Positions 17,601 to 23,600 of a DNA stretch of 64,000 bases are shown here, in pieces (position 1 is the first letter of the stretch; each line of letters begins with the position of its first letter). The translations under genes were made by a program, and so were the position numbers. The notes beneath the pieces are model-generated. The model had not been told where the DNA came from and ran no database searches. It saw nothing but the letters and a program-made list of their open reading frames with translations. This stretch comes from Gavia stellata (Eukaryota > Chordata > Aves > Gaviiformes > Gaviidae). Where the stretch lies: the NCBI RefSeq assembly GCF_030936135.1, contig NC_082603.1, forward strand, positions 33,708,329-33,772,328, read 5' to 3'.

Positions 17601-20600
17601 CGACCTTCTTACATATATTTGCTGTAGGCGGATGATCAAAGCCAAATAACTAGTTTTAGTCTCTTTATCCACATGACTAGTAATTCACACAGCTACACTG
17701 GAGATTGTAGCAATCTAGAGCTTCTTAATTATTTGTGTCTTCAGACTATCTGTTCCATCAAACGACTGGATCTAGTCATAGTTGATTTCTTCAGAGAATT
17801 AAGAATGCCTTCTCTCATTTCGGCATGTGAGGAACTAGAGTGTGCTCCCTTATCGACTGAGGCTGTGCCAGAAGCCAAAACAGCTGAACACGTGGAAGCA
17901 GCAGCTTTTGGACATCAGAAATGATAGCGTTAGAAACATTAACAAGATCAAATTCTGTAGACCTATTTCTTTTTGTCCTTTGAAGTGGAACTACCCAGTT
18001 TATTCTAATGAAGAACTTTCTGATATTTTAATGTTTACTTGCCTATATTTTTTCCTTGTCTTTTCCAAAACAATTGAAAAAAATTAGCTTTGGTGTTACT
18101 GCCAAACCTGAGCTATCTTTAAAGCAATGAAGAATGGTGTAACGCAATGTAAGATAATGGAAAAGCATATTCAGTGGAAACTATAGTCCCACGACTTTTG
18201 AAGTTCAGTTGACTTGAATGACTAAAGTGAAGTTTCCAGTGAGGGTACCCCATTCAAAAGGTAGGCAACTATTCTCAATGTGTAGTCATTATCATTTGAG
18301 GTTTTTTACACCAAATACAACCAAGATGTGGAGCATTTAGAAGCAGAGTCAAAGATTCGCAATCCAGATGAAAATAGACAACTTGAATAGCATTAAGATG
18401 AGGTATGTGGGAGGATTCTAACGTAAAGTTAATCTTTATTTTTCAGTGTTTGTTGCTGATTTGCTGGTTTATATTCCTGCAGTTATTTTATATTGTTTTT
18501 CCTTGAAAGAAACATCTACTAAAAAGAAGGCAAGTATCTGGTGTGTGTGTAAATTAAAAAACAAAGAAAACATACTGTTAAAACAGGGTAGAAATGTAAC
18601 AGTATAAGAGTTAATGAACGTATAGAACACTGATGGCTTCAGTTGACGTAAAACTGGTGGCAGTCAGTATATCTCGTATTAAAGGCTTTTCAGTTAAAAA
18701 GATTAAAAAAAGCCATTATCTTATAGCAATTATTTTAATGCTTTCAATAACAATAACAAGATGTGCTGAAGTTTAGTAGCCGTGAACTCCTGAATTATAT
18801 TTCTTTCTGAATTTATTACTTAGGTAGTAAAAACAAGATTTGTGCTGTGACATGGGGGAATCTAGGAACTGCTTTGTCTTGCACACTCCTTATGGTAGAA
18901 CCAATTCATTTTGGAATAATAAGCCGTCTGATTTTTGGAGTGGTTCCAAGGTTTAAGATGGGTGTGGGTGGTCTTTGAGCTGGTCGGCAAAGGGCAGGCT
19001 GGTCTCCATTCAACATTTTCTTATTTATGGAAAATCTTTATTCTTTTTTATTTGTCAAAATATTACTGACAGAAGATTGCTTGTAGAGAAGAAGATTCCT
19101 ACGTATAAGACGCACCGTGGAGGGGCAAATTTTTGTACTGGAGAAGTAGTATAAATTCCTCTGTCTAATGTCTAACCTAGAAATAATTATCTTCCCCCTC
19201 TTTTTTTTTTTTTTTTGATCCTTCTTTCCAGGTTTCTAGTGCTCTCTGCATACTGCTTTATCCAGGCCTCATTCTTATTGACCATGGACACTTCCAGTAT
19301 CCTTGTTCTGCAGTGAAATGAATTTCTATTTACGAACTAACACTGTTCTTTAGTACTAGTCTTTAGCTGGGCAGAAGGTTACTTTTGTATACAAAGTCAT
19401 CTGAGGGGCTTCTGCCTACCCCAAAGTGGAGATATTGAAGAAAACTGTCAGTCTGAAATATATCGGAGATAAATAGTTGATATTGGGACAAATCAATCCA
19501 AACATGAATAGCGTTCTTCCCATGCCTCAAGCTCCTATTTCTGTCAGTCGCTTTATTGCAGATAACGTCAATGCCGCTATGACAGTGAAAAGAAGGATGG
19601 CTTGTGCTCCTGTGATTTGTGTTTGGAGAGAGAGTCACCTTAGATCTTCCGGAGATGGCAGAGGAGTGTGTCAGGTGTAGTTGTGTAAAATGTTCAGTTC
19701 TATAAAATGTGCCGTTCTGTCTTGCCTTTACAGTTACTTGAGGTGGATTCACTTCACTTAATAATGCCTAACCATTTAAAAGCTAGGCATCTAATACGAG
19801 TTAGGCCATCAGAGCTAACTAGTAAATAGTGGTGGCAGATGCCTTCACAGGTGGGTCTTTTTTAATAAGATTTCTGTTTTTATACTTGTTTTGCTCATCA
19901 ACAAGCAAGTGCTGTTAGTTGACTACTCCAGGCTGTGCCGCTTAGTGCTGTTGAGCCAGAGGGACACAATCCTGGAGTTGTGATAAATGTGGATATTTAA
20001 ATATGCCAAGGAGATATCAAATCTCAGCATCTACTACTAAATCAAGTTTTGACAATCAAACAGTTTACTAATTTGTTATTTTCTTCCAAGAGAGTGCATG
20101 GTGAACTTGGATGATGATATATCTTTAGAAAGCAGATCTAGAAGGAAAAAAATTCACAATGTTATTGAATATTTGAGTTACAGCTCAGGAATTCTGAAAT
20201 TCCATTTTTGGCCTGACTCTTTAAAGATGTAGATCATCTGGAGACATCTCTTACAAGAATGGGGATGGGAATGAATGCAGCTCATCTTAGGTGAGAGAGG
20301 CTGGCGATCAGAAGGCGGCACAGGTTTAGGTTTTCTGCTATGGAAAAGAAGTACGAAGAGGAAGGCAATAATCTGTTGTGTGTCTTATGTTAGATAGGGG
20401 AAGTACCAGCCCGAAGTTACCACAGGGATACATGGAAAAATCTTTTGAACCTTAATTACAGTGCAATGCTGGAATAGATTGTCTGTGGATGTTGTGGAAT
20501 CTGTAGCATCAAGACCGTTAAGGAAAGGTTCAGCAAACCTCTTGTCAGGGGTGATGTAGGTGCAGCAGACACTGTGTTGAAGCAGACAGATGTTGTGCGT

Positions 20601-23600
20601 AGTCTCTGGTCTCTTCCAGCCCTGTGATTCTTATGTGAATAACTTCACTACCTGTGACCAGCTCTTGAGAAGTAAATCTATTGACTTAACCTTACCTGCT
20701 GCTGCAGGTCTCTGCAAGTTCACAGCCTTTCGGTATAATGATTTGTTGATGAGATTACAAATACACATGGTGATTTTGAGTGAGAAATTTGTGTGGGCTG
20801 GAAACAAGGTAGACAAATCTGAATGTGTTGTCACAGCTATTTATATTGACGAAGAGAAAACAAAATACTGTGACATTTCTGACAAGTATCTCTTGGTTTC
20901 TCTCATTGCGTAAAAATAACAGTAAAAGACAAAGCTAATCTTTTTTTGCAATTTAATAGTAAGTGTAGCTTAGTCTCTTCAAACTCTGCTGAGCTTGGGA
21001 ACCTGTTCTCAAAGTCATAAGGAAGTAACGTTGCTTTTAGTAACTATTAGTCATTGTTTGTACACTATTAGCAGCTACGGGAACTGGTCATGGATGAGGG
21101 TGCCTTGTGAGTATAATATAATCACAAAAAACCTCAGGAGTCCTTGAACTAAATAATATATAATTTAAATACTGATGTATTTGAATATTCTGCACATATC
21201 TTTTGGGAGCTGGGAGGAAAGACTCTTGAAAGCTTTATCCTTAATCATGTAAATACCAAGAAAAAAATATTTACCCTGATGCGTCTTACCAAGTATTGTC
21301 ACTGTCACTAGAACCTTGGCTGACTGAGGATACATTACTTGTATAATTAACACACACACATGCTATTTGTCCTCATTTTTGCCTGTGCAAGCTTTGACTC
21401 AAGCCTTGGAAATAGCAAAATTACACTTGAAATCAAAGTAAAATTATTTCTGTCTGTGAACAACATAGTCACAACTGGCAATGTGTTTTTAAAACTAACT
21501 TGGAAAAACTTACTTGGCATGCTGTTTTATGCTTGTCCCTCAGGGCATTCATTACTGACTTCCAGTGCTGAGTTGTGTATCTTGTCCTTGACATAAAAAA
21601 CCATATACAACTCAGTGAGCCTCGGCTTTGCCTTGTGGGGTGTGCTTTGTTTGTCTTACGACTGGGACCTGTTGGGGTCAGTGGCATTTTGCTTGGCCTT
21701 GAATTATAAGCAAATGGAACTCTACCATTCTCTGCCCTTTTTTTGCTACTTACTTGGAAAGTGCTTCAAGAAGGGACTGAAAGGAAAGGGGTAAGTGACT
21801 TTAGACCGTGTTGTCTTTCTCGGGAATGCACCCAGGCAGCCTGGCATTGAAATGTGATTCTCCTTATTTGCAGGTGGGCATTTATTTCTGAATTAATTTC
21901 TCGTGGAAGATACTTACCTTGTTGTAATGTATTCCTCTCTCACAAAATAAGTATTTCTTGCTGAGGTCTACATGAAGTGTTTCCACTGAACAGATGGTAA
22001 AATCTGTTAAGGTGTCCTTTCTTAGCACTCTTTATTTTGTAAGCTAAATTAAATACGGGCTGCAGTGGGCAACCAGATTAGACTGACAGCAGTAGCTCTG
22101 TGGTTCTCATGGATCGCTCAACTGGGGATGATGAACTTTTTCTGTGGTACCGGTAGCTCGTTTTGTTTACATCTGTCACCTTCAGTTTTGTATCTCTTTT
22201 TAAAAAAAGGTTTATGTTATAAACTAAGAACTGACTTTTGTTACCAGTAGCTGGATTTATTTTTTCTGATGTAAGCTTTTCTCTTGATTGCAGATTAGCG
22301 TTGTTAACTAAAATAACAGGGACAGTGGTGGTTTCCTTTGCTGTCTGCTGGCTCCCGTTCTGTACCGACATGGAACAAATCATGCAAGTACTCAGAAGAC
22401 TCTTTCCCATTGACCGAGGCTTGTTTGAGGCATGCATGTTTTCTTCTCCCCCACCCCGCTGTAAATGTTCCGTATTCTTAGATCCCTTGAGAAACCTTCA
22501 TCGTGACCTTTAGGGATTTCATGTGGGAGACACGCCACAGAACCAGTAATTTGAGATGGCTTCTTCAGCAGTCGTTTCTTGCCAGTTATTTAATCCAGTA
22601 TTTAACCCCAGCTCAGCTGGCATCTTCCAGGATATTATATGAGTAGACAACACTTATCCCATCATCAAACCCATACTTCAGTCCATACATTTTTCCATTG
22701 AAATAGATTCCGTAGTAATTGACAGTGTCAGAAGATGTCACCTCAAAAGTTAACAGCTTCAGTCTCTGTCTTTGGTTCTGCTCAGCTATTGTCAACAGGA
22801 TTCATTATTTAAAAAAAATAAAAATAGTGTTTTGGGTGCAGCCTAGAACTTCCTTTTTGACCCACCTTGTGTTTTCAGTGCAAGTTTCCACAGTATTTCC
22901 CAAAAGTTTTAGGCCAGGTCTGCTTTTGCTTTTCCTCAGGCTATCGACATTTGCATGCTGCAGGGTGCTGAGTTCCGCAGCCTTAATCCAGTAAAGCAAT
23001 TTCTTGTTTACCTAACGCTAAGGCCACAGGAGTCTCGCTGATAAAAGAAAGCATACTCATTTCCCAAGTAACAGTGAGCTGCTGCTGTTGTTGTTTTGCT
23101 TAATTAGGGCAGGAGTCTTAATATCACAGTTTAAAAAGCAGATTCTCAACTTCCAGTTTAACCAATAAAATAAAGCTTTGAATTTTCAGTTTTTGATGTC
23201 ACAGGGATTTAAGCAAATGCTTACATAGCTTGATTCATCTCAGGTTTTCTTTTAATCTTCTTTAGATAGAAATAATACCACGACTGGCACTTTTTTCTTC
23301 AAAAATTAATGTTGCTGTACCAAAGGCAGCATTTTATTTGGGCAGCGGTATGGAAGTTATTCTCTGCTAGTTTATTTGAAAAAAAAAAAAAAACCAAACA
23401 AACCCAACAACCAAAACAAACAACCCTCCCACCCCAAAAAAACAATGACCTTGGGAATTAATCTGGAATTTATAAATAAATAGTTTTGGTCGCCACACTT
23501 CTTATTCAGTACCAAGTTTAAAAATAAAATCTGTAAATGACAAGAACCAATGAGTCTGAAAGAGCTTAAGGATTTTGGTCTAATATTAGCCCAAATATTT

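Follow-up and report, generated by a model that had tools for sequence, protein, structure and literature searches.

Intron 6 of ALG6, a gene for protein sugar-coating, raises the question of whether an intron of the bird Gavia stellata ends in AT or AC instead of AG. A previous reading of this locus, made from the letters alone (the sequence-only reading), had proposed a GT-AT or GT-AC intron of the minor spliceosome. We followed up this proposal in the window (the whole analysed stretch of 64,000 nucleotides; contig NC_082603.1, positions 33,708,329 to 33,772,328 of the forward strand), in the 1.32 Gb host assembly, and in a set of ALG6 proteins. As set out below, intron 6 is, very likely, a U12-type intron with GT-AT termini that is orthologous to the GT-AT U12 intron of human ALG6.

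The gene was placed on the plus strand by tblastn, using a human ALG6 sequence as the query, and its coding region in the window is complete:

8601..27862, plus strand: ALG6 coding region, from tblastn, the exon model, Pfam PF03155 (503 bits), and yeast Alg6 (6snh).

In the exon model, 14 coding exons spread over 19 kb encode 507 residues, and the sole stop codon is the terminal one. Pfam PF03155 matches this 507-residue model at 503 bits, and the alignment with yeast Alg6 (6snh) covers residues 6-490. The window looks like bird DNA: among the 174 ALG6 proteins from the matches listed, the closest is that of killdeer (P0014), with 96.2% identity over 478 compared positions, residues 159-179 being omitted. 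Ten of the model's 13 introns are GT-AG, two are GC-AG (introns 5 and 8), and one, intron 6, is GT-AT.

Several other features of the region were recorded. Intron 5 (18530-19231) has the GC donor AAG/GCAAGT. Because three bird models (P0066, P0093, and P0102) and a turtle model (P0126) continue into KKKAS, which is AAG GCA AGT translated, this suggests that the GC donor is common to other birds and a turtle. Intron 8 (22430-24505), the second GC-AG intron, has a weaker donor, GAG/GCATGC, which fits the consensus at five of nine positions. A perfect tandem array (4913-5022; 17-base unit, 6.5 copies, 100% matches) lies 5' of the ALG6 start codon; no tandem repeat was found over the intron 6 junction, and a single one lies within intron 6, at 19675-19718. 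The Rfam scan of the window returned no match.

The signals and flanks of intron 6 are as follows:

19232..19296, plus strand: exon 6, ending ...CAC TTC CA, phase 2.
19297..21604, plus strand: intron 6, 2308 bases, very likely U12-type, GT-AT.
19297..19304, plus strand: U12-type donor GTATCCTT, an exact match to RTATCCTT at the exon edge.
21585..21592, plus strand: U12-type branch site TCCTTGAC, an exact match to TCCTTRAC; seven of seven pairs with the U12 snRNA of the same genome, the A omitted.
21603..21604, plus strand: very likely terminal AT of intron 6, placed by the frame together with the conserved residues; 13 nt past the branch adenosine.
21605..21790, plus strand: exon 7, starting A/TAC AAC TCA GTG, which completes Gln165 and continues as YNSV.

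The exact motif matches bear out the claim that donor and branch site are minor-spliceosome signals. Joining CA (to 19296) to A (21605) gives back HFQ-YNSVS, and the residues HFQYNSV are identical in yeast Alg6. Since the Tyr166 codon TAC starts at 21606 and A 21605 completes Gln165, intron 6 very likely ends at 21604 with AT; the native residues place the end here and not at 21608, where the sequence-only reading had put it, and its expectation that an AT end restores Gln165 and a protein of 507 residues agrees with the exon model. With 21591 taken as the branch adenosine, 13 nt separate it from the end of the intron, inside the 10-20 nt range given for U12-type introns in one review (PMC8199999) and at the upper edge of the 11-13 nt optimum given in another (PMC3584512). 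Intron 6 has no distinct polypyrimidine tract: pyrimidines make up 0.44 of its bases at -20..-5, whereas the remaining 12 ALG6 introns have 0.56-1.00, with a small margin between 0.44 and the lowest of these. A U12 snRNA match in the genome scores 150 bits, and its GUAAGGA pairs with TCCTTGAC at seven of seven positions when the adenosine is left out, one pair being G-U. A second U12 match (L002; 91 bits) has an A-rich stretch inserted close to its 3' end and is probably a pseudogene.

We then compared the motifs with shuffled sequence. RTATCCTT occurs five times in the window against a shuffle mean of 4.05, and TCCTTRAC five times against 4.47, both at chance level; motif counts alone, being equal to those of shuffles, were dropped as evidence for a U12-type intron. 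It is the placement of donor and branch motif in intron 6, not their number, that goes beyond chance: a donor at the exon edge together with a branch adenosine that precedes the needed exon start by 10-20 nt has a joint probability of about 1-2e-8, a simple product of rates for motifs picked after being seen, and this arrangement is unlikely by chance. Elsewhere in the gene, intron 12 contains the U12-donor-like GTATCCTT (27116-27123) and ATATCCTT (27139-27146), 23 bases apart, with no TCCTTRAC match near them.

Every AG downstream of the branch point had been said to break the frame. We tried all five AGs between 21560 and 21699 with the donor at 19297, and paired all exon ends within 19240-19419 before GT, GC, or AT with exon starts within 21560-21699 after AG or AC. 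The alternative ends that matter are these:

21600..21601, plus strand: rival AC end, which adds His-Ile for 508 residues; 10 nt from the branch adenosine.
21614..21615, plus strand: decoy AG, which keeps the frame only with the donor shifted to GT 19305-19306; YPLS form, 506 residues.
21618..21619, plus strand: decoy AG that keeps the frame, 28 nt past the branch adenosine; 502 residues, without YNSVS.

The statement about the AGs proved wrong. One of the five, AG 21618-21619, keeps an open frame with the same donor (502 residues, HFH-LGF), and the donor GT 19305 with AG 21614-21615 is open as well (506 residues, HFQYPLSLGF). The paired search gave 48 combinations that keep the frame without an early stop; none of these yields HFQYNSVS, and the YPLS sequence arises only from GT 19305 with AG 21615. 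AG solutions for intron 6 are therefore available; what counts against them is their residues and signals, not the frame.

A GT-AG intron from the donor at 19297 to AG 21618-21619 has an open frame in its favor, and 8 of the 174 proteins among the matches listed carry its junction, HFHLGF (three squamates, a turtle, a yak, a lemming, a rat, and a fish). However, this splice removes YNSV, which is identical in yeast, its protein has the lowest Pfam score of three (473 bits, against 490 for the AC end and 503 for the AT end), its AG lies past the 10-20 nt range from the branch adenosine, and the junction is absent from all seven of the short-contig proteins described below. We consider it very unlikely to be the explanation of intron 6; the splice could occur as a minor alternative product. 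A GT-AC intron ending at 21601 also keeps the frame, its end falls barely inside the 10-20 nt range, and the sequence-only reading was right that it would insert His-Ile and give 508 residues. A frog protein (P0147) does read ACN before Tyr, but at the position of the AT, not three bases upstream, and HFHIY is found in none of the 174 proteins among the matches listed. Of the two termini left open at the outset, AT was retained for its restored residues, the 13-nt distance, the 174 listed ALG6 proteins, and the human intron; AC was given up for the added His-Ile, the Pfam score of 490 against 503 bits, and the disfavored status of GT-AC in a review (PMC3584512), and a GT-AC intron is scarcely credible here.

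The 174 ALG6 proteins came from three protein searches, in which 120 of 4863, 120 of 337, and 120 of 282 matches were listed. The latter two were queried with the AG form and an upstream-extended junction form, and favor such models; each entry is a 90% cluster. Because of these junction-directed queries and clusters, the class sizes that follow, all among the matches listed, are not natural frequencies: the native QYN junction occurs in 68 of 174 (QYNSV 62, QYNC 3, QYNA 2, and QYNT 1), QYPLS in 67, all bird-named, other QYP forms in five, and four lack the junction segment. Twenty of the 174 are upstream-starting models with an ATN codon before Tyr166, namely 18 from mammals (QNIY 15, QNMY 2, and QHIY 1), one from a snake (QTNIY), and one from a gecko (KTIY). 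The codon before Tyr is ACN in one (frog P0147, Rhinophrynus dorsalis, QHTYNSV) and AGR or CGN in another (mole-rat P0131).

When an intron is in phase 2 and the mRNA gives Gln-Tyr across it, ATN before Tyr implies that the intron ends in AT. We deduce from these protein models that the intron has an AT end at the same place in a snake and a gecko as well as in mammals. The end is apparently not AT everywhere, since the frog model reads ACN and the mole-rat model AGR or CGN; with the Thr codon of the frog, the same intron would end in AC.

Seven proteins among the matches listed (P0003, P0084, P0110, P0115, P0116, P0118, and P0167) are found only on short contigs of 1,298-2,185 bases. Because the ALG6 coding region spans so much more in the window, these are probably spliced transcripts, and all seven have the native QYN. 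One of them, P0003, is bird-like, with 471 of 507 residues identical and no internal gap. Among the bird-named entries in the matches listed, 76 of 85 do not have the native junction: 72 carry a forced QYP form instead, and four lack the segment.

YPLS, the form of most listed bird models, would correspond to a U2-type GT-AG intron running from GT 19305 to AG 21615 and giving 506 residues. This pair keeps the frame, and YPLS stands in 67 of the 174 proteins among the matches listed, with bird names throughout. Its donor, CTT/GTTCTG, fits the U2-type consensus at only three of nine positions, against five to nine for 12 other ALG6 donors, and the pyrimidine content ahead of AG 21615 is 0.38. 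The resulting protein is without the NSV of the yeast-identical HFQYNSV, none of the seven short-contig proteins reads YPLS, and the two entries of Acanthisitta disagree, P0071 reading YPLS but P0062 QYNSV. We give this intron almost no weight; the YPLS bird models are, judging from their sequences, a forced GT-AG splice of the kind that the window pair GT 19305/AG 21615 yields. The same 67 models suggest that other bird genomes likewise have no fitting AG. This bears on the idea that a base error in the assembly conceals a canonical end of intron 6, where a single base change would indeed create one: the other bird genomes would seem to lack a fitting AG too, an AT at the same place follows from 20 other models, 18 of them mammalian plus those of the snake and the gecko, and the annotation of human ALG6 includes a GT-AT intron. 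An assembly error is highly improbable.

For the favored GT-AT intron, we propose that the U11/U12 particle would bind the donor and the branch site of intron 6 together, that U6atac would replace it at the donor, and that the second step would take the AT at the optimal distance over the AGs 24 and 28 nt past the branch adenosine. These AGs lie outside the published 10-20 nt range (PMC8199999).

Intron 6 of ALG6 would offer a clean natural U12-type case whose end is neither AG nor AC and looks conserved across amniotes, and it is useful for testing whether distance or dinucleotide governs the choice of 3' end by the minor spliceosome. Many database entries are wrong here, in a segment identical to yeast (HFQYNSV), where gene-finding software often errs. 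A further conjecture, which we think unlikely, is that the amniote ancestor already had the AT end and that selection rather than drift has held it: mammals seem to splice at the AT despite a competing AG six bases upstream, so that this unusual 3' end may tune ALG6 output.

The nearest known system is the human gene itself. The human ALG6 intron has been published as a rare but annotated (GENCODE) GT-AT U12 intron in the LRGASP report (PMC11543605; preprint PMC10402094), so the termini are rare, as the sequence-only reading had said, and are already on record for ALG6. A figure legend in the preprint (PMC10402094) describes a six-base deletion at this intron, arising from a GT-AG splice forced by the aligner. 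Window intron 6 is like the human intron in gene and, very likely, in termini and class; the six-base deletion corresponds to the two extra residues of the 18 mammal models, and the view that the two are the same intron is supported by these six bases and by the termini. One apparent difference is that mammals seem to have an AG six bases upstream of the AT, where the window has AA. Our literature search found no ALG6 variants numbered c.494+ or c.495-. Intron 6 is thus not new: it is very probably orthologous to an intron already known, and it is apparently conserved. What we add is how far its AT end seems to extend through amniotes and how widely the site is misannotated in birds.

Among minor introns in general, intron 6 shares GTATCCTT, TCCTTGAC, and the short branch-to-end distance with the common GT-AG subtype of U12-type introns, which end in AG whereas it very likely ends in AT. 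It also resembles the GT-AN or G-type U12 introns, in which donor and branch site are standard but the last base is relaxed (PMC8280824, PMC4176328, and PMC7367187). In the database of PMC7367187 (Table 2), ends classed as "other" account for 5.2% of the U12-type introns in human and 3.4% in chicken; GT-AT is listed among human minor introns (PMC8280824), and a 5' G can be joined to either G or T at the 3' side (PMC4176328). In fly data, most GT-AT junctions were reported as AT-AC of the opposite strand (PMC4528330). Compared with other U12-type introns with unusual ends, intron 6 of ALG6 would be distinctive only in its apparent conservation.
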